Source of the DNA: Gemmatimonadota bacterium | Lineage (GTDB): Bacteria > Latescibacterota > UBA2968 > GCA-2709665 | Assembly: GCA_028874335.1 (NCBI GenBank) | Contig: JAPPJY010000089.1 | Coordinates: 1-64,000 of the forward strand | Length of the DNA stretch: 64,000 nt | Reading direction: 5' to 3' | Shown here: positions 1,504-17,468 of the stretch, piece after piece | Numbering within the stretch: position 1 is the first letter of the stretch | Layout: each line of letters begins with the position of its first letter | Made by a program: the position numbers and the translations under genes | The notes under the pieces: model-generated | Seen by the model: the letters and a program-made list of their open reading frames with translations, nothing else | The model's database searches: none | What the model was told of the DNA's origin: nothing

Positions 1504-2841
1504 TCAACTCCACGGGAACGGACTGTTGGACACCGGATGGAGCCTTCCCTCGGCATAACGGGAAAAGCGAAACGGCGCCAGCAGACGCGAGGACCCGCCC
1601 AGGAGTTCCCCCGCCACCAGCCTGCCCACGCCGATCATCTTGTACCCGTGATTCGAGTCCGCAATGAAGTAGCAGTTCTGGTGAAACCGGTCGAACACCG
1701 GAAAACTGTCGGGTGTAAACGCGCCGATGCCGCCGGACGGCTCTTTATTGAAGAGCGATGACTTTCCTTCAAACCGCTTGTGACAGAATGCCAGCGCGGA
1801 ACACCACTGATGGGCGAACTGCTCGCCCACGATGAAATCGGGGGATTCCGGTCCATAGGGGTCCACGGCCACGTCGTCCGGCGGTCTTTCCACCCGGTAG
1901 GGCATCGCCCCCCCTTGTACACCCCCGAAGTGGAAATCGGGCTTGTAATAAATGCCCCACAAACGATCGGTAATCAGCGAACCGTCGACGTCCGAATACA
2001 GCGGCGCATCGGTGTCGAGGTGAATAACAGGGGGCATGCTGCCGTCGTTGGTCTTGAGGTAGTTGGGGTCGACGCCCAGCGTACCTTCCTGCAAACACCA
2101 GTAACTCCACATCGGGAGATCGTGGTGCATCGCCCCGTCCGGACCCTTGATGCTCACCGACGCGGGCAGATCCAGCATATCCCAGAGCAGCTTCGCCCAC
2201 GGCCCCGCGGCGATAACGACCTCGTCTGTCCGGATCACGCCGCGATCCGTTTCCACCGCCGAGACAGCTCCTCCGTCGAACCGGAATCCGGTGACCGCGA
2301 CGCCTTCCAGAATCCTGACGCCCTCGCTCCTGGCCTTGTCTGCCAGGCCCACCATCGACGCGCGGTTGTTGGCGTACCCCCCTCTTTTTTCGTGAAGAAC
2401 GGATGTGATTCCCTTCGCCTGCCAGTCGTGAAACAAACGCCGCATATATTTCGTGCAGTCTGCATCGCCTTCTATAAACTCCGATTCGTAACCGATCTCG
2501 CGCTGCTGTTGTGCGATGCTGGCGACGTCCTCATGCATGGACTCGGGGCTGATCTGCATGTAACCGACGGGATGGTAGCTGAACGTCTCCGGATCGGTCT
2601 CCCACAAATCGACGCTGTGCGCCATCAATTCGCGCATGGCCGGCTGGAAGTAGTTATTGCGGATGACGCCGCAGGCGATGCCGGAAGCGCCCGCAGCCAC
2701 GCCCTTCTTGTCCACGATCAGCACCTCGGATCCGGAAACGCCTTGGCGTCTCTTCAGCTCCCTCGCCAGGTGATAGCCGGTACTCAGACCGTGAACGCCG
2801 GCGCCGATAATCAGATATGGCGTATGTTCGGGTATGCGCAT
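1504..2841 (-). CDS. DAO-family FAD-dependent amine oxidoreductase
   Basis: A 445-residue flavoprotein of the D-amino-acid oxidase/sarcosine oxidase beta family. The N-terminus has the dinucleotide fold YLIIGAGVHGLSTGYHLA (about residues 9-26). It is followed by an acidic strand end (VLIVDKKGVAAGASG) and, later, the family segment VVIAAGPWA. Relatives oxidise sarcosine, dimethylglycine or other secondary and tertiary amines. They release an imine or formaldehyde and pass electrons to oxygen or an electron-transfer chain. The substrate cannot be read from the sequence. The neighbours are a ThDP enzyme 36 bases upstream and a RidA protein downstream. This fits an amine-catabolic unit in which RidA clears the imine (inference). 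Confidence 0.8.
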   Translation of the reverse strand: MRIPEHTPYLIIGAGVHGLSTGYHLARELKRRQGVSGSEVLIVDKKGVAAGASGIACGVIRNNYFQPAMRELMAHSVDLWETDPETFSYHPVGYMQISPESMHEDVASIAQQQREIGYESEFIEGDADCTKYMRRLFHDWQAKGITSVLHEKRGGYANNRASMVGLADKARSEGVRILEGVAVTGFRFDGGAVSAVETDRGVIRTDEVVIAAGPWAKLLWDMLDLPASVSIKGPDGAMHHDLPMWSYWCLQEGTLGVDPNYLKTNDGSMPPVIHLDTDAPLYSDVDGSLITDRLWGIYYKPDFHFGGVQGGAMPYRVERPPDDVAVDPYGPESPDFIVGEQFAHQWCSALAFCHKRFEGKSSLFNKEPSGGIGAFTPDSFPVFDRFHQNCYFIADSNHGYKMIGVGRLVAGELLGGSSRLLAPFRFSRYAEGRLHPVSNSPFPWS

Positions 2842-2877: not shown

Positions 2878-4599
2878 CTAGTATTCCATCCCCGTGTATA
2901 AATTCTCCTCCACCCGGGCAGCCACGACCGTCAATTCCGGTTTGGCCAGCCACGCCTCGCCGGCCCGCCGCATTTCCTCCAGGGTGGTCACCGGCACGCC
3001 CGTTGCGCCGAAGCCGCCCGCGACCCGCGCCCAATCCACCGGCTTGAAATCAACGCCCCGGTAAGGCAGGTTGCGCATGGCCTGAGCGACCTTGACAATG
3101 GCCAGGGACCGGTCGCACATCACCACGAGCAACGGCCGCAGCCCCAGCCTGCGTGCGGTTTCCAATTCCTGGACCATCATCGCGAAACCGGCGTCGCCGA
3201 ACACGCCCGCCACCGGATGACCTGGCCGCAGGAGCGACGCCGCCAGCGCCGACGGCAGACCGTAACCCATCGCGGAAAGGCCGTTTGACGTCAGAAACGT
3301 CCCCGGCGAACGCGGCCGCCAGACCTGCGAAACCAGCATCTTGTGCGCGCCGACGTCGACAGAAAGAATGGCTTCCGCGGGCAGTGTTTCGCGTATTTCA
3401 CGTATCAGATGAAACGGCGAGAGTCCATTTTCACCGGCTTCCTCATCGGGACAGATCGAATCCGCGACGCCGGCTATTGCGCAGCGGATTTCAGCGGCCG
3501 TCCACAGCGGGCGGGCCTTGTATCGGGTCAGCAAGCGATCCAGCAGGATTGTAACGTCGCCCACGCACTCGTAAGCCGGCCTGAAGCCGCCAAAGGCAAT
3601 CGGGTAATTGGCCAGGGAGTAAACCGCCTGGCGAAGATGCCAGTCCTGCGCCGATTCCACCGGATCGAAGCCCACGCCCAGGATACAATCGCTCCGACTG
3701 ATAAGGTCCACGAGAACGGCGTCTCCCGCGGCCGATGCGACCGTGCCCAGATAGCCCGGTCCGAACTCATCGGGAATTCCCTTTGCTTGCGGAAGCACGA
3801 CATAGGGAATCTGAGACTCGGAAAAGAACCGGCGCACCGCGGCCGAATCCCGATGGGCGTCCAGTGCGATGCCCACCACGCCGACCGGACGTTCAGCCCT
3901 GTTCAGCGCCGCCGCTATCCCGTCGAGACTGCCGCTGCACGCGCGAGTCGGGTCCGGCGTCGACGCGCCCTCGCCGGGCGCCGCGTCGGCCACGGCGACG
4001 TCATTCGGTATCGAGAGGTATACCGGACCGGCGGGAGCCGCGGTCGAAACCTTCAAGGCGGACCGCACAGTCGCCTGTATACCTCTCCTCTCAAGGGGGA
4101 CCGACCATTTGCAGACGGGATCGAACAATTCATTGAGAGGCAGATTCTGCTTCTGGCTCACCCGTGACCGGGATACCGGGCTGACCGCGGACAGGGCCAC
4201 GATCGGGTCCCGGTCGAGGTATGCGGCGCCGACGCCCAGCACCAGATTGCAAGCGCCCGGGCCAAGCGTCGCCAGGCAGACCCCCGGCGTGCCCGAAAGG
4301 CGCCCCACCGCGCTGGCCATAAAGGCGGCGGCGGCCTCGTGACCGGTCAGTATAAACCGGATTCCGGTCGTCTCCAGCGCGTCGATCAGATCCACAACCT
4401 CGCCGCCTGGGTGGCCGAATACGAACCTTACACCGCCTTCGTGCAGGGTTTCCGCGATGGCTGTCGCGCAGGATGGCACGGACTCGACGGCTTCCAGGTC
4501 GGCTTTCAAATCAGGCAGGTTCGTGCCCCTTCCGGTAAACCCTTTGGAAGCGCCGGTCCATTCACTGACGTCCTGCCGGGTACGAGGCGGCGCCCGCAA
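2878..4599 (-). CDS. Thiamine-diphosphate-dependent enzyme, acetolactate synthase-like
   Basis: A large-subunit-type ThDP enzyme of up to 573 residues. The pyrimidine-binding domain has the catalytic glutamate in LTGHEAAAAFMASA and the turn TLGPGACNL. A central FAD/DHAP-type domain follows. The C-terminal domain has GDAGFAMMVQELETARR in place of the usual GDG...NN metal motif. Relatives include acetolactate synthase, sulfopyruvate decarboxylase and benzoylformate decarboxylase, and I cannot choose between them. The start is uncertain. The frame opens at a TTG (4599), and a second TTG at the DLKADLEAV segment, with AAGGGG upstream, would give a more usual N-terminus. It lies between a homocysteine methyltransferase and an amine oxidase in the same leftward run. 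Confidence 0.8.
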   Translation of the reverse strand: MRAPPRTRQDVSEWTGASKGFTGRGTNLPDLKADLEAVESVPSCATAIAETLHEGGVRFVFGHPGGEVVDLIDALETTGIRFILTGHEAAAAFMASAVGRLSGTPGVCLATLGPGACNLVLGVGAAYLDRDPIVALSAVSPVSRSRVSQKQNLPLNELFDPVCKWSVPLERRGIQATVRSALKVSTAAPAGPVYLSIPNDVAVADAAPGEGASTPDPTRACSGSLDGIAAALNRAERPVGVVGIALDAHRDSAAVRRFFSESQIPYVVLPQAKGIPDEFGPGYLGTVASAAGDAVLVDLISRSDCILGVGFDPVESAQDWHLRQAVYSLANYPIAFGGFRPAYECVGDVTILLDRLLTRYKARPLWTAAEIRCAIAGVADSICPDEEAGENGLSPFHLIREIRETLPAEAILSVDVGAHKMLVSQVWRPRSPGTFLTSNGLSAMGYGLPSALAASLLRPGHPVAGVFGDAGFAMMVQELETARRLGLRPLLVVMCDRSLAIVKVAQAMRNLPYRGVDFKPVDWARVAGGFGATGVPVTTLEEMRRAGEAWLAKPELTVVAARVEENLYTGMEY

Positions 4600-4638: not shown

Positions 4639-5706
4639 TCACAGCTTATCGACGAACTCCTGATTGTGACGCCTGAGCGTGGCATCGCTGCCCAGCGCAT
4701 AGTGCCTGGACATATCCGGAGAGTACCGGCTGGCAGGCGGGCGTCGACCCAACGCTTCCGCGATCGACCTGACGTGATGCGGCCCGGCTCCGCAGCAGGC
4801 GCCCAGGTACCGGACTCCCATTTCGAACGCTGTACGCGCGAACGCAGCCATTTCGTACCTGTGACATGCAAACGGATCCAGCGCCGTGGGAAAGGAACGT
4901 CCTCCGGGCGGGGCGGGGGCGCCCGTTTCCCCCAGCGACTGAAACGTCGGTTGATCGTCCGTCGTGCGGTAAGGCACCGGCAGTGCCGCCACGTGGCAGG
5001 ACACCGAACGCCGTATTCGTTCAACATCGGGCAGCATCGTCTGCGGACCCCTAGTGCAATTCACCCCCACGACGTCGACGCCTGCCTGTTCAAGGCGTCT
5101 TGCGGCCTCGTCCAGCATGACGCCATCCCTTAGCCCCTCCTCGCGATGGTGGGCAAAGGTGACGACAGCCGGCAAGCCGGCGCGTCTGATGGACGCCAGC
5201 GCCAGCGCGGCCTCGCCGAAGAAGGAAAATGTCTCCGCGATCATGAAATCGACGTTCGCCTCAGCCGCCCAGGCCACCTGCTCGTCGAACATCGCCGCAA
5301 TCTGCGTATCCGTTGCGCCATCGGCCGGGTCCCATATGTTGGTATTGCAAATGTTGCCGGCAACGAGCGGGCGTTCTCCGTCCACGGATCCGGCAACCGA
5401 TTGCGCGATGGACAATGCGCTTTTCTGCAGGGGTTCCAGAAGGTGTTCACTTCCAATGAGACGCATCTTTTCACGGTGCCCGTAATAGGTAAACGCTTCG
5501 ATCACGTCGGTGCCCGCGCGCCAGAATTCGAGATGCAGACCGGCCACGACCTCGGGATGCTCGAGCACGACCTCCGGCACGTATGGGCCCGCCTGCAGAT
5601 ACCCCCGGCGCTCGAGTTCGAACAGGTAGCCCTCTGCGCATATCACCGCGTCTTCGTCAAGGCGCTGCAACAGGCCCCGGGGGGTTGCCGACGCATCTGC
5701 TTTCAT
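4639..5706 (-). CDS. Homocysteine S-methyltransferase family protein (BMT)
   Basis: A 355-residue TIM-barrel methyltransferase of the betaine-homocysteine/S-methylmethionine methyltransferase family (Pfam S-methyl_trans). The zinc-binding cysteines are visible: one in VVGVNCTRGP and the adjacent pair in LGACCGAGPHH near the C-terminus. Family members move a methyl group from betaine, S-methylmethionine, DMSP or a similar donor to homocysteine or another thiol. The ATG at 5706 follows AAGGA at a good distance. A second family member, fused to a SAM-type methyltransferase domain, lies at 9766-11514 in the same block, so two different donors or acceptors are likely (inference). Confidence 0.85.
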   Translation of the reverse strand: MKADASATPRGLLQRLDEDAVICAEGYLFELERRGYLQAGPYVPEVVLEHPEVVAGLHLEFWRAGTDVIEAFTYYGHREKMRLIGSEHLLEPLQKSALSIAQSVAGSVDGERPLVAGNICNTNIWDPADGATDTQIAAMFDEQVAWAAEANVDFMIAETFSFFGEAALALASIRRAGLPAVVTFAHHREEGLRDGVMLDEAARRLEQAGVDVVGVNCTRGPQTMLPDVERIRRSVSCHVAALPVPYRTTDDQPTFQSLGETGAPAPPGGRSFPTALDPFACHRYEMAAFARTAFEMGVRYLGACCGAGPHHVRSIAEALGRRPPASRYSPDMSRHYALGSDATLRRHNQEFVDKL

Positions 5707-5736: not shown

Positions 5737-8022
5737 TTATCGGGACGACACATTCGCCGGCGGCGTCGGGTTGGCGTCTCCCAGCACCGTGCGTCCGGCG
5801 GGGGTGTCCAGAAACCGGCGAATCACGTTGCGTGTGATCATCGAGACGTTGTTTGAATACCCGTTGTGAGAGAGGCTGCCCGTCCACGTTACGGAGCCCG
5901 CGGAAAAGACCGCGCCTCCCCCGGCATAGTCCATAATCGCCACGTCGGCCGCGGGCGTGACGTGTGTGCGCCTGGCGGGGATGAAATCGGGATGCGCCGC
6001 CCGGGCGAGTACGACCGGCTCCGGCGTGAACCGGTCCCACGCCCAGGCCTGAACGGCATCCATTTCAAATCCGGCCGCGCTGCCCAGGTTCAGACCGAAG
6101 TCGCCGATAATCTCGTCCTGCCCGACGCCGTGGAATACCCATGCATATCTGGCGTCCATGCTTGACGGAAGCCGCCGGAATCCCCGTTTATCGTCGGCTT
6201 CGATCCAGGCGTTGGACGCATGTTCCACGCCGACCGTCCGCCGTGGTGGACGTCCGCGCCTGGCCCACAGACCTCCGAGTTCCAGTGTCGTACTGTGTTG
6301 GGATTCCCCGGGCGCAGGATCGTACGTCGGTCCGTAGTCGCCCTCTCCTCCCCTGCGAAGTTCGAGCAGGTGCGTCCGCCGGGTGTCGATGGACGTCACC
6401 CAGTACAGACCGTTGCCGCTCAAATAGACGAGGCGGCCCCCGTTCCGCACGTACGCCGCCAGGCTGTCGACCATGTTTTCGGTGTGGTATTCCGGATGGC
6501 TTCCCATAACCACACATCGATAGCCGGAGAGCAGATCGGCGCCCCCGCGATGAAGGTCTTCGTCCGCAAATGCCTCGTATTCGAACCCCAGCGCCTCCAG
6601 CCAGTCGATCAGGTAGAGGTTCGCCGTTATGTTGTGCGCCCCCCAGTTCTGGAATCCCGCGCCGGGATTCCATCCCCGTGTGGGCTGAAGGCGCGAGTAA
6701 TAGTGAACCATCGAACCGTCGCTGTGAACGTCGTAAGTACACAGCGTTCGGTCCAGGACACCGTCTTCCGTATAGCTGTACGCGGCACGGTTGCTTCCGT
6801 ATGCCTGCCACGTCAGCGTGGGAATCAGACATCCCAATTCGGAACGCGGCGTTTTCGATGTAACGATAAACGGTACGAAGAGCGCGTCCGAAGCGGACCG
6901 TGCCCGCAGTGTGTATATGCCGGATCTCGCGTCGGAAGGCACCGCAACCGTAATCGCCGTCGGCCACCCTGCATCTTCGAGGTCGTCTTCATGCAGGTAG
7001 ATCGCGTTGTAATCATCGGGCCGATCCGTATAAAGCCTGGACGGCATTCCCCCCCAGTACGGCCCCGTCACGGCGCGCCCCGGCGCATTGACGGCAAGCC
7101 CGTGGTTTCTGTTGTCAGAAAGATCGACGACCCGGGGGCCGGTCACGTCCAGGCCAAGATGCCAGTTTCCAATGACGGGGCCGAGGGTTGACGGGTCCTG
7201 TCCGCCAGCAAGCGCCAGGACCGCTTCGCGGTCTAGCGCGGCTCCGAGAATCACGGGGTGCGCGATCTTGCCCGTAAAGTGAGCCCAGTGGCAAGCGCTG
7301 CGATCGGCGTCCTGACACGCGCCGAACAGCAATGGCGCGTTACTTGCGAACACGCAACCCTTCCTGATTTCTTTCGAGGAAAGACTCAACGTATCGCGGG
7401 AAGACCGGGTTTCGACCACGCCGGCCGTATCGCCAATCTGCTGGTAGAGACGGATTTCGCCGGAGTCAGGACGGTGCGAGAACGCCACGAACTGCCAGTT
7501 GCCCACGTGGATGTTCTCTCTGGCCGTCGCCCAGTGCGCCGTCCTTCCGTCGTGAGAAACCGCAGCCGTCAGAAAGCGCTCGCCCGCGAAGAAAATACCG
7601 TAGCCCAGGTTTTCGCTTGTCCACTTCACGGCAAGGGCGCGCCAGCCGCCACCGCCCAGCGTTGGCTGGAACCAGAGGGCGACGGTAAACGGACCTTTCG
7701 GATTCAGGGTATCGGAGTGGGGAATCTCTATGTACGAACCATAATCCGTAGGTTGTTCGAAAACCTCGATGCGGTCCGGCTGCCCCCATGAGACACGTTC
7801 TTCCCGGTAGCCCGGACCGGCGGGATTGGGATCGCCATGAATCAATCGCGACAGGTTCACGTCCACCGTACCTGGAGGGCCGCCCAGTTTGAATGCGATC
7901 TCCGCTCCGGCCGGCACGGTCATTTCATCCGCGTAGCCCTCCAGCCCGAGTCCCGGGACGGGCGACGATTTCTCGAATCGGGGATTGGACAATATTCGTG
8001 CCTTCGCTTTGGACATCTCCAT
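5737..8022 (-). CDS. N,N-dimethylformamidase large-subunit-like protein with LamG domain
   Basis: A 761-residue protein. Residues around 90-220 look like a LamG/concanavalin-type fold (GPFTVALWFQPTLGGGGW, VAFSHRPDSGEIRLYQQ). From about residue 400 the sequence matches the catalytic region of the N,N-dimethylformamidase beta subunit family, with LIPTLTWQAYGSNRAAYSY, a glutamine-amidotransferase-like core and GGRLVYLSGNGLYWVTSI. The characterised enzyme uses mononuclear iron to hydrolyse dimethylformamide to dimethylamine and formate. No small alpha subunit is seen here. Most relatives have unknown substrates, probably N-substituted amides. Formate dehydrogenase genes a few kilobases upstream in the same orientation would suit a formate-releasing reaction (inference). 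The start could be the first ATG (8022) or the one two codons later. Confidence 0.75.
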   Translation of the reverse strand: MEMSKAKARILSNPRFEKSSPVPGLGLEGYADEMTVPAGAEIAFKLGGPPGTVDVNLSRLIHGDPNPAGPGYREERVSWGQPDRIEVFEQPTDYGSYIEIPHSDTLNPKGPFTVALWFQPTLGGGGWRALAVKWTSENLGYGIFFAGERFLTAAVSHDGRTAHWATARENIHVGNWQFVAFSHRPDSGEIRLYQQIGDTAGVVETRSSRDTLSLSSKEIRKGCVFASNAPLLFGACQDADRSACHWAHFTGKIAHPVILGAALDREAVLALAGGQDPSTLGPVIGNWHLGLDVTGPRVVDLSDNRNHGLAVNAPGRAVTGPYWGGMPSRLYTDRPDDYNAIYLHEDDLEDAGWPTAITVAVPSDARSGIYTLRARSASDALFVPFIVTSKTPRSELGCLIPTLTWQAYGSNRAAYSYTEDGVLDRTLCTYDVHSDGSMVHYYSRLQPTRGWNPGAGFQNWGAHNITANLYLIDWLEALGFEYEAFADEDLHRGGADLLSGYRCVVMGSHPEYHTENMVDSLAAYVRNGGRLVYLSGNGLYWVTSIDTRRTHLLELRRGGEGDYGPTYDPAPGESQHSTTLELGGLWARRGRPPRRTVGVEHASNAWIEADDKRGFRRLPSSMDARYAWVFHGVGQDEIIGDFGLNLGSAAGFEMDAVQAWAWDRFTPEPVVLARAAHPDFIPARRTHVTPAADVAIMDYAGGGAVFSAGSVTWTGSLSHNGYSNNVSMITRNVIRRFLDTPAGRTVLGDANPTPPANVSSR

Positions 8023-8029
8023 GAACGGC

Positions 8030-8812
8030 TCAAATGTACCTCACCAGCCCGCCGTCCACGTCTATAGATGCGCCGGTAACGTAGCTTGCCCGTTTGCTGG
8101 CCAGGAAAGTCACGACCGCCGCGATCTCTTCCGCTTCCCCCACCCTGCCCAGCGGTGTCTCCCGGCCTGCCTGTGCGTAATACGCCTCCAGTTCCGCGTC
8201 CGGCGCGAAATAGTCCAGCGTACTGCCCCAGGCCTGGCTCTTCACGTTGCCGGGATTGACACTGTTTACAAGAATACCGTATTGTGCAAGATTGTCCGCG
8301 AGACCCTTGCTGAATGCCAGACACGCGGCTCTGTCCGTGCTGTTGGCGATGTATTCCGGCGCAATCTGGCGCCCGACGATTGAGTTGATGTTGACAATCC
8401 TGGCCTGCGTGCTTTGTTTCAGATAGGGCAGTGCGGCCCGCACACAGCGCATCGCCGCAAACAGCTTCACGTCGAGGTCCGCGCGCCAGCGGACCTCCTC
8501 CACCTCTTCGAACGTACCGGGAAGCGCACTGCCGGCATTGTTCACCAGAATATCCAGGCCGCCCAGCGCGGTGGCTGCCGCTACCACGAACGCCAGGATC
8601 CGGTCGTTGTCCGTTACATCGGCAGTGTCGGCGAATACGTCGGCACCGGTTTCCTTCCGGAGCGCCGCCGCCGTATCGTCAAGATCACGGGACCCTCGGG
8701 CGCAGATCGCAAGGTCGGCGCCTTCCCGTGCGAGTTCAAATGCAATTGCACGGCCGATACCCTTGCTGCCGCCCGTAACCAGCGCACGGCGGCCTTTCAG
8801 CCCAAGGTCCAT
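8030..8812 (-). CDS. SDR-family oxidoreductase with altered catalytic residues
   Basis: A 260-residue short-chain dehydrogenase/reductase. The cofactor motif TGGSKGIG is near residue 14, and LVNNAG near residue 90 is intact. The active-site region reads SIVGRQIAPEYIANSTDRAACLAF. Aligned with the usual S...YxxxK pattern, this puts Asn at the catalytic Tyr position and Arg at the Lys position. I checked this against the bases at 8320-8400. A known subset of SDRs annotated as ketoacyl reductases shows similar losses. The ATG at 8812 is chosen because AGGAGG lies five bases before it. The dimethylformamidase-like gene follows after seven bases, so the two are probably co-transcribed. Confidence 0.82.
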   Translation of the reverse strand: MDLGLKGRRALVTGGSKGIGRAIAFELAREGADLAICARGSRDLDDTAAALRKETGADVFADTADVTDNDRILAFVVAAATALGGLDILVNNAGSALPGTFEEVEEVRWRADLDVKLFAAMRCVRAALPYLKQSTQARIVNINSIVGRQIAPEYIANSTDRAACLAFSKGLADNLAQYGILVNSVNPGNVKSQAWGSTLDYFAPDAELEAYYAQAGRETPLGRVGEAEEIAAVVTFLASKRASYVTGASIDVDGGLVRYI

Positions 8813-8881
8813 CAAACCCTCCTGCGTGCCGGACGACGTGTCATAACCATGCCCGGAACGTGTTCCGAAACCCTTATGTTC

Positions 8882-9712
8882 TCAGTACATCGCACCCGTT
8901 GTCACGCGAATGTCCTCCCCGTTGATGCCCCGCGCTTCGTCCCGGCACAAAAAAACCACGAGATCGGCGATTTCCTCCGGTCGGAGGAACCTGCCCTGCG
9001 GATAGGTTTTCATGACCTCCTCGCGCATGGCTTCACGGGAGAGTCCCTGGTCTTCCGCCCACCGCCGCAGATGCATTTCCCCCGATGGCGTCTCGATCGT
9101 AGCCGGGCTGACGGTATTGGCCGTTATGCCATGGGGAGCCGCTTCCAGCGCAAGAGACCTGCTGAACCCCAACAACCCGTGCTTGGATGCCGCATAGGCG
9201 CTGTAATTCGACGTGCCGATATGGGAATTGGTGGAGCCGATGGATACGATACGCCCCCAACCGTTTTCAATCATATGGGGAAGTGCATATCTGGCGCAGA
9301 GGTAGGGTCCGAACAGATTCACGTCAACCACGCGCCTCCACGCCCGGTCGTCGTGGTTCAGAATCGGATGTATTACATTCGTTGCAGCATTATTCACCAG
9401 AACGTCCAACCTGCCGAAGGTCCTGATGGTCCGGCCGATCATGTCCTCAACGTCCGTCGTGGAACTCACGTCTCCGTCCAGACCGATGCACCGTACGCCC
9501 GTTTCCCGGATTTCCCCCCGGGTTGCTTCGATCTCGTCGGCGCCCGCGAAATATTTCACCTCGCCTTCCACCCGCTTCACGCGCACGCTGCTCAAGGACA
9601 TGATGCAGACGTCCGCGCCCCGACCCGCCAGACGCAGCGCGATAGCCCTGCCCAGCCCGCTCGCGCCACCCGTGACAATTGCGGCGCGTCCTTTCAGGAA
9701 TCGATCTTCCAT
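8882..9712 (-). CDS. SDR-family oxidoreductase
   Basis: A 276-residue classical SDR. It has TGGASGLG near residue 15, LVNNAATN in the middle, serine in IVSIGSTNSH and the full YAASK catalytic motif (NYSAYAASKHGLLGFSRSLA). It is expected to be an NAD(P)-dependent alcohol/ketone oxidoreductase, substrate unknown. The ATG at 9712 has GGAAG seven bases upstream and is preferred over an in-frame codon at 9763. The gene lies between the fused methyltransferase and the second SDR. The two SDRs may act in sequence, or one may be non-catalytic. Confidence 0.85.
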   Translation of the reverse strand: MEDRFLKGRAAIVTGGASGLGRAIALRLAGRGADVCIMSLSSVRVKRVEGEVKYFAGADEIEATRGEIRETGVRCIGLDGDVSSTTDVEDMIGRTIRTFGRLDVLVNNAATNVIHPILNHDDRAWRRVVDVNLFGPYLCARYALPHMIENGWGRIVSIGSTNSHIGTSNYSAYAASKHGLLGFSRSLALEAAPHGITANTVSPATIETPSGEMHLRRWAEDQGLSREAMREEVMKTYPQGRFLRPEEIADLVVFLCRDEARGINGEDIRVTTGAMY

Positions 9713-9765
9713 ATTGCAACTTCCGCTGGCGTATGGGAGCGCACCACGTTCCAGAACCGGCACGG

Positions 9766-11514
9766 CTATGGATTCCGTCCGGCAGCCCTTATTTCCAGCA
9801 GGTACATCACCATCACGTTTTCCTGACCAAAACTCAGGTGGAAGGCGTCCGACAATTCGGCGACCCGCCGGATCTGGTCCGAGTTTTCATCGAATAACGG
9901 TCCAAAATGAAAAAAGCTGAAGTCGATGACCTTCGCTTCCAACCCGGCGGCCGAAACCAGCTCCGACGTCCGAATCTGGCTCAACGCCGAAATCTGCATC
10001 AGGTAGGCGATGCCCTCGTCGGCCAGCATCTCCGGCAGCAGGGCGACCAGGTGATCGAGTAGATTCCTGCCCCAAAAATCCGCGGGCCGGTGTCCGGTTG
10101 CCTGGCGGACCGGATCCACCGGCATCTGATAGAGGCTGCCGATCACCAGGTCATGGCGCTCTTCCGGAATATAAGTGTAGAGGTCCACAACCCGTCCGGA
10201 AATACGGTCGGCCACGCCGTTGCGAAACGCGTTCGTCATTGTATTGCCGATGGCTTCTTTCTGAATATCGATTGCAAGGACCTGCTCCGCTCCGTTCAAT
10301 GCGAGCTGTACCGAGAGGATTCCGGTACCGCACCCCACGTCCAGACAGCGTTTGCCCCGACCGGCGCCCGTTCGAAAGAGGTGCTTCCAGATCAGAAAGC
10401 TCCCCTGCGTGGGAGCGAATACGCCAGGATCGCAAGCAATTTCAGGAAATGGCAGCGGAAAGAGCGACCTCCCGGCCTCGTCCGCCCATGGACCCTGGAC
10501 GACCGCTGCATCCTTCCGGCTTCCGCGCAGCGGTGACGCCTGCTCACGCACGCGCTTTCGGCCGGGCCGGGTGCAGGCGAGCGTTTTTCCGGCTTTGGCA
10601 ATGTGATCCGGCGTGACGCCACAGCACCCGCCAATGATCTGCGCGCCCTCGTCCCGCCAGCCCCTGGCCAGCGCGGCAAAGCGCCGGGGGCCCACGGACT
10701 CGTCAAATTTCCAACCCGGATCCAGGTAGCGTCCCAGGTTCGGGTAAACGCCCAACGGCAGATCCGTAAAATCCCGCAGCCACGAGATCATCCCCGGAAC
10801 GTGATCCACCGGCAGACAATTGATCAGCAGGGCGCCAATCCCCAACCGTTGAAACCGGTGGGCCAGCCTGCCGAAATAATCGCCCTCAGGCCCACCCCAG
10901 TGCTGTCCGTGTACGCCACACAGACCCTCTCTGCAACGCCGAAAGCTCAGCCACACCGGAAGGCCGGTCTGGATCATCATTTCGATTGCGGGAAGCGTAA
11001 GGTCGTCCCGGACGATTGACATCGTCTCCATCAAGACAAGGTCGGGCGGTTCGTCCGCAAATACCCTTGCCAGCAGTTGCAAGCGCTCCAGCCGCTGAGG
11101 CGTATCGATGTCTCCGTTCATGCTGAACGCGACGGCGCATTCGTCGTCCCTGCCCAGCTCCTGATTCGCCTGGCGCGCCAGTCCGACGCCGCGTCGCGCC
11201 ACATCCATCCAATGCGATATACCCACGTCCGGCGTCGGTCCTCCCCCGCCAATCTCCGATCCCTCGAGGATTCCCCAGGTATTGGTTGAAATGACGTCAC
11301 ACCCGACTTCTGCAAAGCGCCGGTGCATATCGAGAACGGTATAGGGTTCATGGTACAACGCCCAGGTGCCCCAAAGGCTGTGATCGCTTATGGCGTGATC
11401 CTGAAGGCCCATGCGATCCAGTTCGGTTGCAACACCGCCATCCAGAATGACACAACGGTCCTCGACGATAGATCGCTGGATGCGGCGGTAGGCTTTCGAG
11501 AAGATGCGGCCCAT
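9766..11514 (-). CDS. Fused homocysteine S-methyltransferase / class I SAM-methyltransferase
   Basis: A 582-residue fusion in a single open frame. Residues 1 to about 310 form an S-methyl_trans TIM barrel (CVILDGGVATELDRMG; zinc cysteines in LLINCLPVDHV and IIGGCCGVTPDH, about residue 295). After a basic linker, residues 350-582 form a Rossmann methyltransferase with CLDVGCGTGILSVQLALNGA (about residue 390) and an acidic strand end AIDIQ. The fold resembles PrmA/HemK-type enzymes. One half would methylate a thiol and the other would use SAM. Whether a methyl group is relayed between them is speculation. The ATG at 11514 has GGAG ten bases upstream, but an ATG at 11607 is also possible. It is first in the catabolic run. 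Confidence 0.75.
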   Translation of the reverse strand: MGRIFSKAYRRIQRSIVEDRCVILDGGVATELDRMGLQDHAISDHSLWGTWALYHEPYTVLDMHRRFAEVGCDVISTNTWGILEGSEIGGGGPTPDVGISHWMDVARRGVGLARQANQELGRDDECAVAFSMNGDIDTPQRLERLQLLARVFADEPPDLVLMETMSIVRDDLTLPAIEMMIQTGLPVWLSFRRCREGLCGVHGQHWGGPEGDYFGRLAHRFQRLGIGALLINCLPVDHVPGMISWLRDFTDLPLGVYPNLGRYLDPGWKFDESVGPRRFAALARGWRDEGAQIIGGCCGVTPDHIAKAGKTLACTRPGRKRVREQASPLRGSRKDAAVVQGPWADEAGRSLFPLPFPEIACDPGVFAPTQGSFLIWKHLFRTGAGRGKRCLDVGCGTGILSVQLALNGAEQVLAIDIQKEAIGNTMTNAFRNGVADRISGRVVDLYTYIPEERHDLVIGSLYQMPVDPVRQATGHRPADFWGRNLLDHLVALLPEMLADEGIAYLMQISALSQIRTSELVSAAGLEAKVIDFSFFHFGPLFDENSDQIRRVAELSDAFHLSFGQENVMVMYLLEIRAAGRNP

Positions 11515-11753: not shown

Positions 11754-11782
11754 AAAAAAATCCCGGTGTTCCGAACCGGGAT
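11754..11782 (-). terminator. Rho-independent terminator, leftward
   Basis: An 8-bp stem (arms 11760-11767 and 11775-11782, loop of seven) is followed on the leftward strand by a run of T (11754-11760). It would end transcripts from fdhD-fmdB after they cross the MITE-like element, separating that operon from the methyltransferase run. Confidence 0.75.
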
Positions 11783-11791
11783 CCACAAGCC

Positions 11792-13017: not shown

Positions 13018-15756
13018 TCAGGGTGTATGTGGTTCCGGCACAATCGCTTCAATACGAACCGGACATACCTTTAGTTCGGCTGTTTCCGTCACCGGATCGT
13101 AGCCGGATCCTGTAAGTACATTTACCGGAACGTCATTGAAACCAAAACTCGCGAACACGGTGCCTCGGGGTGACTGCCGGGTCGCCTTCACCTTGATCCT
13201 GATGGACCCCCGCGCGCTTGACATCTGACACCAGCCGCCGTCGGTAAGACCCCATGCCGACACGTCCGTTGGATTCACCTCCAGCGTCTCTTCGGAAAGA
13301 AAATAGTCGATCCCCGCCGCCCTGCCGGTCTGGGTCCGCGTATGGTAGGCATGCAGCCTGCGACCGGTCGTCAGCCATACCGGAAAGTCGTCGCTGACTG
13401 TCTCCGCCGGATTGCGGTAGCGATGCTTCGTGAAAATACCCCGGCCGTTTGCAAATTCGCCTTCGTGCAACATCGGTGTGCCTGGATGTTCAAAGTCAGG
13501 GACCGGCCAGTGGTACTCGCCGTGCTCTATCCGATCCCAATCCAGCCCGGCGTATATTGGAGACAAGCTGCACAGCTCGTTGAATACATCTTCGGCGGAA
13601 GCGTACTCGAATCCGGGCGTTCCCATCCGTTTGGCAATCTCACTGATGATCCACCAGTCAGGACGGGCTTCGCCGGGGGGCGGGACCGCGGCACGCAGCC
13701 GCTGGACGCGCCGCTCGGTATTGGTACACGTCCCGTCCGTTTCGCCCCAGGCCGTTGCCGGCAGCACCACGTCGGCGAGTTCTGCGGTTTCGGTCAGGAA
13801 AATGTCGATAACCACCAGATGGTCGAGGCTCTGCAATGCGTGCGTGCAATGCGCCCTGTCCGGATCGGACACGACCGTGTTCTCCCCGTCGATCAGCATG
13901 GCGTGGATCCGGTCTCCGCACAGGTTCAACGCCGCCACCTTCGTAATGCCCGTTTCCGCTTCCAGACGCTTGCCGTAGAGCCGTGAGAATCTCGCCGCAT
14001 TCTCCGGGTCGTCACAGGGCTGGAAGCCGGGGAATTTATCCGGAATGGCTCCTGAATCGCCGGCGCCCTGGATATTGTTCTGGCCGCGCATTGGATTGAT
14101 GCCCGTGCCCTCCCGCCCCACGTTTCCCGTCATCAGCGCGAGATTGCACAGGCTCTGGACATTGTCGACGCCGCAGATATGCTCGGTTATTCCCAGCGTA
14201 TAGTAGATCGCGCCCCGGTCCGCCATACCGTACCAGATCGCGGCGAGTTCGATATCCTTCGCAGGCACCCCCGTAATCCGCTCGGCCCACTCCGGGGGAT
14301 ATTCCTTGACATGCTCGAGCAAGTCTTCAGACTTCACGGTCCGGCTATTGACAAAGTCCCTGTCAACGAGTCCTTCCCGCGCAATGACGTGGGCCATTGC
14401 CAGCAGTAGAGCGACATCCGACCCGACCCGCAACGGAAGATAGAGATCCGCCATCTCCGCCAGCGGAATGCGCCGCGGGTCCGCGACGATCAGCTTTGCG
14501 CCGCCCCGTATTGCTTTCTTCAGTCGCGTCGCCGCCACCGGATGACACTCGGTCATGTTCGTCCCGATGCAGAAGAACACATCGGGCTTGTCCATATCGA
14601 CCAGCGGATTCGACATCGCGCCCCTTCCGACCGTGGCTGCCAGACCGGCAACCGTTGGGGCGTGTCAGGCACGGCTGCAGTTGTCTATGTAATTGGTACC
14701 GAATCCGGCGCGGATAAATTTCCCCATCACGTACGCGGCCTCGGTAGGCGCGCGACCCGACGCCACTCCGTACGCGCTGAATTTCCCGTGCTTCGCTCGA
14801 GCATCGCTGAAACCCCCAGCAGCGCGATCCAGTGCCTCCTCCCAGCCGGCTTCGTGCAGCTTACCGTCTCCACGGCGCACGAGCGGCGCCTTCAGGCGAT
14901 CGCGGTGATGCACGAAGTCGAACGCGAATTGCCCCTTTACACAAAGCGCGCCCTCGTTCGCCGGGCCGTCCATCGCGGGCTGGATGCCCACGATCCGCTC
15001 CCCTTTGGTCATCAGGTCCACGGAACACCCCACCCCACAATACGGGCAGGTCGTTCGGGTCTTTTCAATCTTCCCCGGTTCGCCGGAGGCCCTCAATGCC
15101 TTCCTGTCAGCAAGCGCGCCCGTGGGGCAGGTCTGAATACACTGCCCGCAGAACGTACAGGACGACTCCTTCAGCAGGCCGTCGAACTCGGTTACGATCT
15201 GCGTCTCGAACCCACGGCCCATCACGCTGATCGCGTCGTCTCCCTCCTGTTCGGCACACACGCGGACGCAACGGTAGCAGGAGATACATCTGTCGTAGTC
15301 CCGCAACAGAAACGGATTGTCGTCCTCCATCTTGCTGCGTCCGGAAAGAGCGCCACTGAACCTGCCGGTGCGCGCGCCGTATCGATCCGCAAGCGTGGAC
15401 AGTTCCTGCGAGGCATATCCGCAGAGGGGATCCACATCGATCTCGGGGTTTTCGGACGCCACCATCTCCAGCAACACCTTTCGATACTTCCGTATCTCAT
15501 CCGTTTCCGAACGAACGACCATACCGGGCGTCACGGGTGTGGTGCAGGAAGCCACGGGAGTTTGTGCCCCTTCCACGTCGACCACGCAGAGGCGGCAACC
15601 TCCGAAGGGCTTCAGCCGCGCGTCGTAACACAGGGTCGGCACGGATATCGAGTGCCTTTGCGCAACGTCGAAAATGGTTTCTCCGTGGGAGAACCGGACC
15701 GTCTCGCCGTCAAGGGTCATTGTGGCTGTCTTGCCGCTATCCATGTCTTCGACCAT
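13018..15756 (-). CDS. fdhA: Formate dehydrogenase alpha subunit, selenocysteine-containing (TGA read-through)
   Basis: A 912-residue molybdopterin oxidoreductase whose frame is interrupted only by a TGA at 14665-14667, codon 364. The surrounding peptide DNCSRA-(TGA)-HAPTVAGL aligns exactly with the formate dehydrogenase active site, where the residue is Sec or Cys. The N-terminus is NuoG-like: a plant-type 2Fe-2S domain (CYDARLKPFGGCRLC), 4Fe-4S sites (CISCYRCVRVC, CTFCGQCIQTCP), then the Mo-domain cluster TTCPYCGVGC. The C-terminus is a molydop-binding domain. It oxidises formate to CO2 and passes electrons to the NAD-reducing beta subunit. The ATG at 15756 has AAGGGGAG upstream. A normal stop would truncate the protein just before the catalytic residue, leaving two meaningless halves. 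Confidence 0.93.
14635..14664 (-). promoter_or_regulatory. Bacterial SECIS element in fdhA
   Basis: Starting 11 bases after the TGA, the mRNA can form a seven-pair hairpin (GGTTGCC / GGCAGCC, one U-G pair) closed by the loop GGTCT at 14635-14653. Spacing, stem and loop agree with the Escherichia coli fdhF SECIS, whose apical loop also contains GGUCU 11 bases from its UGA. This is the SelB-binding signal that recodes UGA as selenocysteine. Confidence 0.88.
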
Positions 15757-15803
15757 CACTCTCCCCTTCCCGGATTCTGGCGTCGCGTCAGCACCGACGC
15801 GGG

Positions 15804-17468
15804 CTACTGCCGCAACACGTGCCGTTCGACCTGATCCGGAAAATACTTCATCAGGCTCTCCGTCACCAGAGGAGCCGCCGTGCCCAGACCGCACGCGCTG
15901 GTGGCCATCATGGCCAGGCCGATATCATGTACCTCCGCCCGCCATTGCCCCACCTGCCCCGGCCCGTTAACGCCGTTCAGCCGCTCCACCAGCCGGCGCG
16001 TGCCGATGCGGCACGGAAAACACTTGCCGCAGGACTCGTCGGCAAAAAAGGCCATCGCGCCGTGGGCAACTTCGACCATGTCCCTGCTGTCGTCGAAGAC
16101 GATGATGCCCCCGGCGCCGAGAAAGGACCCGTAACCTCGGAGGCTGGGTTCATCGAGCGTCGCTTCCAGCGCGTCACCCGCTACAAAGCCACCCGACAAT
16201 CCCGCCATGGTGACCGCCTGGATGTCCCGGCCGCCGGGGGCGCCGCCGCCCCAATCGTAAAGCAGTGTTCTCAGTGGCAGGCCGAAGGGGACTTCGTAGT
16301 TGCCCGGACTCTCGATATCGCCCGACAGACTGATGACTTTCGTGCCTGGCTGGCCGTTCAATCCAAGACTCCGGTACCAATCCGCGCCTTTTCGGATGAT
16401 CTGAGGTACGGCAACCAGGGTTTCAACGTTGTTCACCGCAGTCGGCAGGTCCTCAAACCCATGGGTAACCGGATAAGGCGGCCGGTTTCTTGGGAACGGA
16501 TGCCTGCCTTCCAGGCTGTTCAGTAACGATCCCTCTTCGCCGCACACATACGCCCCTCCGCCGCGCCGGATGTGTATCCGGAAATCGAAATCCGTCCCCA
16601 GAATGCCATCGCCAACCAAACCGGCGGCCTCCGCTTCTTCGATGGCGCTTTCCAGAATGCTCAGTGTTTGCGGATATTCGTACCTCAGGTAGATGAACCC
16701 CCGCGTGGCGCCGGTTGCGTACGCGGCGATGACCATGCCCTCCAGTACCGCATGCGGATCATAGTCCAGCAGGGCCCGATCCTTGAAGCAGCCGGGTTCT
16801 CCCTCGTCTGCGTTGCAGACAACCGTTTTCGGACCGCCCGCGGCTTCAGATACCGCCTCCCACTTCGCGCCTGTGGGAAAGCCCGCGCCTCCGCGGCCGG
16901 CCAGCCCGCTTTCCGTGACCCGCTCCACGACCTCTGCCGGCTCCATCCCGGATATCGCTCTCTTCAGTCCGCAGTACCCCTTTGAGGCGCGATACCCTTC
17001 GAGGTTCGAGCGGTTCGGCGCGCGAATATGTCGAAAGACGCACTCCTCCAGCCGGCCGGGGTTTTCCGCCGGCAGCGGCGTCGGGTCCTCCCTCATGCGC
17101 CGTGCATCCGTCCCCACGAGAACCCTGTGGTTCTGTATTACCGGGACCGGTTCATCGCACCTGCCCGCACACGCCATCGGGGCGCCATTCAGGGTATCGC
17201 ACATCTCCTGCGCGCCGCGAAGCGCGCATATCGGCCCGGTGCAAACGCGGAATCCATCAAGTCCGCCGGGCTTGCGGGAAATGTGATGATAGAACGTTAC
17301 GGTACCGAACAAGTCTGCCAGCGGCGTTTTCAACCCGGCGGAAATGGCCCCGATGGCCTCATCGGAGACATACCCGTCCCGATCGTGGAACGCGTGCAAC
17401 AGCGGCAACAGCGGCGCAGGTTCGTCTTTCCAGCGTCGAACCAGTTCGGCGTCCGAAGGGTCCGCCAT
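15804..17468 (-). CDS. NAD-dependent formate dehydrogenase beta subunit (NuoE-NuoF fusion)
   Basis: A 554-residue fusion. Residues 1 to about 150 are a thioredoxin-like 2Fe-2S domain of NuoE type, with the four cysteines in CTGPIC and CAGRC. The rest is NuoF-like: the FMN/NADH site GRGGAGFPTGAKW, a SLBB segment and the C-terminal 4Fe-4S ligands ESCGKCFPC plus a distal Cys in TSACGLG. It takes electrons from the alpha subunit and reduces NAD+. The ATG at 17468 has GGGAG at six bases, and an upstream in-frame codon at 17513 lacks this. It is the first gene of the formate dehydrogenase operon, 47 bases ahead of fdhA. It could be misnamed complex I NuoF, but no other complex I genes are nearby. 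Confidence 0.88.
   Translation of the reverse strand: MADPSDAELVRRWKDEPAPLLPLLHAFHDRDGYVSDEAIGAISAGLKTPLADLFGTVTFYHHISRKPGGLDGFRVCTGPICALRGAQEMCDTLNGAPMACAGRCDEPVPVIQNHRVLVGTDARRMREDPTPLPAENPGRLEECVFRHIRAPNRSNLEGYRASKGYCGLKRAISGMEPAEVVERVTESGLAGRGGAGFPTGAKWEAVSEAAGGPKTVVCNADEGEPGCFKDRALLDYDPHAVLEGMVIAAYATGATRGFIYLRYEYPQTLSILESAIEEAEAAGLVGDGILGTDFDFRIHIRRGGGAYVCGEEGSLLNSLEGRHPFPRNRPPYPVTHGFEDLPTAVNNVETLVAVPQIIRKGADWYRSLGLNGQPGTKVISLSGDIESPGNYEVPFGLPLRTLLYDWGGGAPGGRDIQAVTMAGLSGGFVAGDALEATLDEPSLRGYGSFLGAGGIIVFDDSRDMVEVAHGAMAFFADESCGKCFPCRIGTRRLVERLNGVNGPGQVGQWRAEVHDIGLAMMATSACGLGTAAPLVTESLMKYFPDQVERHVLRQ

Follow-up and report, generated by a model that had tools for sequence, protein, structure and literature searches.

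In animals, glycine N-methyltransferase acts beside BHMT, burning excess methyl groups and freeing homocysteine. A bacterial betaine route is described for SAR11: PMC3160333 gives it as BHMT with dimethylglycine and sarcosine dehydrogenases, and treats glxBCD and soxBDAG as a putative N-methylglutamate synthase and dehydrogenase. Here we describe a gene that joins a homocysteine S-methyltransferase (HMT) domain to a SAM-dependent methyltransferase (MT) domain. It lies in a 64,000-nucleotide stretch of contig JAPPJY010000089.1, and we call this whole analysed stretch the window.

How does this gene compare with the closest described systems? Its first half shares with MmuM and the homocysteine domain of MetH (PF02574) the TIM barrel, the DGG motif, E163 and the Cys...CysCys zinc site. 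However, the fusion adds a SAM methyltransferase and a CxxxxC-QHWGGP loop, and the copies in Opitutales are without the zinc site. A domain search of the chain found no MetH-type pterin or cobalamin domains. The bifunctional HMT/methylenetetrahydrofolate reductase (PRK08645) likewise fuses an HMT to a C1 enzyme, but its second domain is a reductase; the window fusion scores 72 bits against a cut-off of 453 for that family, and its C-terminus holds a SAM methyltransferase, with no MTHFR domain found there. HemK2/N6AMT1 has in common with the MT domain the Rossmann core, motif I and the GR(N/E) helix region, whereas the fusion differs in its SLYQ in place of NPPY, its fused HMT and its C-terminal region. 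MmtN and the plant methionine S-methyltransferase (PMC9135737) share the SAM-dependent class I fold, and their motif IV region is similar by eye. They are not fused to an HMT, the similarity is weaker, and the fusion shows no sign of MmtN's trimer; the match to MmtN is structural only (TM 0.53), and its methionine-binding residues E127, R132 and E250 have no confidently placed counterparts in the MT domain. The SAR11 pathway resembles the locus in its BHMT-like and sarcosine-oxidase-like genes, and glxBCD-like and sox-like genes lie near some fusion copies, but the passages of PMC3160333 covered here contain no HMT-methyltransferase fusion.

Both domain families are already known; the HMT-MT fusion, its loop at residues 193-212 and its zinc-less clade have no description in the literature searched, which took in few subscription papers. 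This agrees with a preliminary description that knew of no established enzyme of this kind.

One chain, two methyltransferase domains

The preliminary description had read one frame joining the two domains, and this reading stands. The frame is unbroken from an ATG at 11514 to a stop at 9766, a GGAG motif resembling a ribosome-binding site lies upstream of the ATG, and both domains score above their Pfam cut-offs. As read from its motifs, the single chain carries a zinc-type HMT domain and an intact SAM-binding MT domain, separated by a variable linker:

9766..11514, minus strand: fusion protein, HMT plus SAM methyltransferase, 582 aa (unbroken frame, Pfam, same architecture in 15 genomes)
10579..11457, minus strand: N-terminal S-methyl_trans (HMT) TIM-barrel domain, residues 20-312 (Pfam 126 bits; nearest solved structures MmuM 5dml, MetH and BHMT)
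10879..10938, minus strand: fusion-specific loop, residues 193-212, RC-x4-CG..GQHWGGPEGD (alignment; low confidence in the structure model)
10816..10818, minus strand: zinc ligand C233 in INCLP, Gly in all three Opitutales copies (alignment)
10621..10626, minus strand: zinc ligands C297-C298 in GGCCG, C298 lost in three of three and C297 in two of three Opitutales copies (alignment)
10489..10578, minus strand: variable interdomain linker, residues 313-342 (alignment)
9784..10488, minus strand: C-terminal class I SAM methyltransferase domain, residues 343-577, with SLYQMPVDP (460-468) replacing NPPY (Pfam, profile and structure comparison)

Could two genes have been joined during assembly or binning? 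The window genome is a draft in 96 contigs, and its contamination is estimated at 7%, but the fusion recurs across four phyla (Latescibacterota-type, Poribacteria, Chloroflexota and Opitutales); 15 genomes carry it, 13 of them as a complete copy, including that of the window. The only copy in two pieces, in a member of the window's family (G023), is split over two contigs that share an exact 243-bp overlap at their ends. These independent copies exclude an assembly join, and we regard an artefact of this kind as practically inconceivable. The preliminary description had also asked whether many homologues of known function share the architecture; homologues exist, but none has a known function.

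The distribution of the fusion is patchy. A scan of contigs gave nine full-length relatives (57-90% identity) and one copy cut by a contig end; the sequences of L010 and L011 match members of the window's own genus. Whole-genome searches added three Chloroflexota copies (G502, G631 and G976) and a contig-truncated copy in the Poribacteria genome G853. Among 64 genomes of the window's phylum, the fusion is carried by all four that belong to its genus and by one further genome of its family. Elsewhere it occurs in 4 of 400 Chloroflexota genomes, 3 of 373 from the Opitutales order and 2 of 85 from the Poribacteria phylum. This pattern over four phyla suggests transfer. Most deep, between-phylum forks in the domain trees are weakly supported, so that one fusion with later transfer is no more than a plausible history for these sequences.

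The two halves and the loss of a zinc site

The N-terminal half matches S-methyl_trans over residues 22-309 (profile positions 1-280 of 283; cut-off 22 bits), and its profile finds MmuM first among solved structures (5dml, E 1.3e-16), then MetH and BHMT. The window copy retains the active-site residues D25-G26-G27 and E163 and the zinc cysteines C233, C297 and C298; all nine aligned zinc-bearing copies keep the three cysteines, D25 and E163. Where the zinc ligands are kept, the HMT half is probably catalytic.

The three Opitutales copies (L015-L017) are different. Their frames are open, but they carry C233G, C298L or Y and, in two of the three, C297G, and a barrel so altered is predicted to be one that cannot use zinc-type chemistry. 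Identity to the window copy in this clade is 56-57% for the N-domain and 65-68% for the MT domain, whereas in other lineages the two values are similar; the Opitutales N-domain has therefore changed faster. dN is nevertheless well below dS, which is indicative only as dS is saturated. Since the zinc site has gone while the rest of the domain stays conserved, we infer a zinc-independent role for the HMT half in these copies. Eighteen positions are invariant in the nine zinc-bearing fusions and altered in all three Opitutales copies; apart from zinc ligands, M464T and H475L of the MT loop are among them. Because the Opitutales copies form one clade, zinc loss and the linked MT changes represent one event, not independent covariation.

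Two regions are strongly conserved across 12 aligned fusions yet poorly modelled: residues 193-212, with 14 of 20 positions (70%) invariant, and residues 461-483 (52%). Residues 536-567 are also poorly modelled, with 22% invariant, and in the linker none of the 22 positions at residues 319-340 is invariant. Among stand-alone relatives of the N-domain, the nearest (L049 and L050, at about 35% identity) retain the zinc cysteines but have neither the CxxxxC nor the QHWGGP of the loop. With L054 they form a stand-alone HMT subfamily related to the N-domain; the L054 gene lies near an apparent glycine-betaine-type ABC binding protein and a hydantoinase. Mean pLDDT of the fusion models is 65.7 and 72.7, so the placement of the two domains relative to each other is not to be trusted.

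The C-terminal half matches Pfam PrmA (residues 386-458, 43 bits against a cut-off of 22) and MTS (residues 359-458, 38 bits against 23). Its class I motif I reads LDVGCGTGIL, and strand 2 is followed by the acidic D416; both are conserved. Its profile finds N6AMT1 first among solved chains (E 6.5e-9), and structure comparison gives TM scores of 0.72 for N6AMT1, 0.70 for METTL5 and 0.53 for MmtN. By these measures the predicted MT domain is nearest the HemK2/N6AMT1 branch. The catalytic NPPY of HemK is missing, with SLYQ at that position in the aligned fusions and SLFQ in G976, and we therefore reject membership of HemK itself.

Genomic setting of the fusion

In the window, the fusion opens a run of minus-strand genes:

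11758..11784, minus strand: terminator-like hairpin with T-run, between the FDH/FdhD unit and the fusion operon (sequence)
8882..9763, minus strand: SDR oxidoreductase 1, likely true start 9712 (Pfam; same order in L009-L011)
8030..8815, minus strand: SDR oxidoreductase 2 (Pfam; same order in L009-L011)
5737..8022, minus strand: DMFA2_C (N,N-dimethylformamidase beta-like) protein with an internal LamG-like domain (Pfam)
4639..5706, minus strand: stand-alone BHMT-like homocysteine methyltransferase, HMT2 (match to animal BHMT; orthologues upstream of the fusion in Chloroflexota)
2878..4599, minus strand: ThDP enzyme, acetolactate-synthase-like (sequence match)
1504..2841, minus strand: FAD oxidoreductase of the DAO family, sarcosine oxidase beta-like (sequence match; orthologues beside the fusion in three Chloroflexota genomes)

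HMT2 aligns with animal BHMT along its entire length (residues 8-340, E 7e-54) and is a better candidate for a BHMT than the fusion. Upstream, the intervening hairpin makes it unlikely that FDH belongs to the fusion's transcript; the FDH and FdhD genes probably form a separate one. The formate dehydrogenase alpha subunit (13018-15894, minus strand) is very probably a selenoprotein, as a single in-frame TGA (CSRA-U-HAPTV) is the sole break in its frame; L009 has this break too.

The fusion is linked to BHMT-like and sarcosine-oxidase-like genes in the window's genus and in three Chloroflexota genomes. The order from the fusion to HMT2 and the start of the ThDP gene is conserved in L009-L011. 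In G502, G631 and G976, HMT2 orthologues (58-62% identical) lie just upstream of the fusion and DAO orthologues (50-68%) adjoin it. G502 also has formate-THF ligase and FchA nearby, and G976 has soxBGAD-like genes, read from sequence, 2.4-7.5 kb downstream. In G065/G066, glxBCD-like genes immediately precede the fusion, and a gene for a SoxA-GcvT protein comes after it. Demethylation of betaine-like N-methyl compounds is the likely setting of the fusion.

One member of the window's family (G019) has the operon without the fusion. Here the operon has another SAM methyltransferase, which shows weak similarity to sarcosine/dimethylglycine N-methyltransferase and may be a functional replacement. 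This gene (L062:1927-2706) has no detectable similarity to the fusion's MT domain. The DMFA2_C/LamG-like gene is also kept in the operon where the fusion is absent (L062 and L064).

Other copies have other neighbours. In Poribacteria the surroundings consist either of an SDR with ThuA/GFO and S15 genes or of a stand-alone HMT: an SDR directly follows the fusion in L012, and a stand-alone HMT is nearby in G853. The Opitutales copies are flanked by none of the genes named above and lie outside any such C1 neighbourhood. In G023 the fusion and HMT2 are on different contigs.

All 13 fusion genomes tested encode S-adenosylhomocysteine hydrolase (in two pieces in G065, partial in G502), and by gene content they are able to recycle SAH to homocysteine. 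Full MetH is present in only 4 of the 13. The window genome has split MetH-like genes for corrinoid, pterin and homocysteine binding close together (C64:2258-9413), resembling the split methionine synthase of roseobacters (PMC12478193). Given the full MetH genes and these split modules, the fusion is not required as the only methionine synthase in at least the genomes that carry them, and it is unlikely to be the main one. The window genome also shows a striking expansion of S-methyl_trans genes, with 13 in all and six on contig C19 (e.g. C19:65513-106535).

A possible methyl sink and its alternatives

What might the fusion do? Our leading but tentative reading, to which we would give somewhat less than an even chance, is a bifunctional methionine-cycle enzyme of a betaine or N-methyl-amino-acid demethylation pathway, with the MT half as a methyl sink. 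HMT2 would move the first methyl of a betaine-like compound onto homocysteine, and the methionine so formed would be converted to SAM. The MT domain would use this SAM to methylate a small acceptor. That acceptor may be an amine open to oxidation by the neighbouring sarcosine-type oxidases, so that surplus methyl groups would be burned and homocysteine released. Beside it, the HMT domain would bind homocysteine or methionine, and it may re-methylate homocysteine with a second donor or act as a binding or sensing module. With their zinc site gone, only the binding or sensing role could survive in the Opitutales copies.

Several observations favour the methyl sink: the motifs, the operon in the window and in same-genus genomes, the DAO and HMT2 neighbours in Chloroflexota, the SAH hydrolase, the match of HMT2 to BHMT, the sox-like, glxBCD-like and formate-THF ligase neighbours, and the alternative SAM methyltransferase in the G019 operon. 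Against it stand the Opitutales copies without zinc site or C1 neighbourhood, the differing Poribacteria neighbours, the separate contigs in G023 and an MT domain that resembles HemK2, which methylates protein glutamine or lysine, more than glycine N-methyltransferase. The preliminary description had proposed that the fusion links methionine and SAM chemistry. The operon and the SAH hydrolase in 13 of 13 genomes fit that proposal, but a methyl relay by way of a zinc-homocysteine site cannot be all that the fusion does, because one clade has lost this site.

The sequence losses in that clade speak for another reading, in which the HMT domain is mainly a non-catalytic module that binds homocysteine or methionine to place or regulate the MT, zinc catalysis being ancestral and dispensable. 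The Opitutales copies have lost C233, C298 and mostly C297 but kept the remaining domain, including the loop at 193-212, under the low dN noted above, and the stand-alone HMTs beside many copies could supply catalysis. However, the retention of all catalytic residues in the nine zinc-bearing copies implies that catalysis is probably still selected there, and we find this reading doubtful. A related synthesis, also rather improbable in our view, is a single-chain methyl shunt: a homocysteine-binding barrel would feed, or sense for, an MT that burns surplus methyl in betaine-type catabolism, and in one lineage the barrel would be a zinc-free pseudoenzyme accompanied by putative MT substrate-loop changes, M464T and H475L.

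Two further alternatives turn on the acceptor of the MT half, and we judge both unlikely. The MT might use SAM to form S-methylmethionine (or a different sulfonium), whose methyl the HMT would hand back to homocysteine, a self-contained cycle buffering SAM and methionine like the separate MMT and HMT enzymes of plants. MmuM, the best solved match of the N-domain, is an S-methylmethionine HMT, the MT's structural matches include MmtN (a methionine S-methyltransferase), and VIGSLYQMPVDP by eye resembles IVGCLPQVGEPD of MmtN; yet the MT is closer to N6AMT1 than to MmtN, which is not among the 60 chains listed for the MT profile. Alternatively, the MT might modify a macromolecule (protein Gln/Lys or RNA, as HemK2/N6AMT1 does), with the fused HMT supplying methionine locally: N6AMT1 is the best profile match among solved chains (E about 7e-9), and METTL5 and N6AMT1 head the structure matches. 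The replaced NPPY, the catabolic gene neighbours and a presence as patchy as that in the Opitutales order, which is unlike housekeeping HemK enzymes, all count against it.

Why does the fusion matter? BHMT-type demethylation places a load of methyl groups on the methionine cycle, and their later fate in bacteria is rarely assigned. With an HMT-MT fusion that recurs in uncultured bacteria near BHMT-like and sarcosine-oxidase-like genes, this fate becomes directly testable, and for the barrel domain the zinc-less Opitutales clade is a separation-of-function experiment already made by nature.
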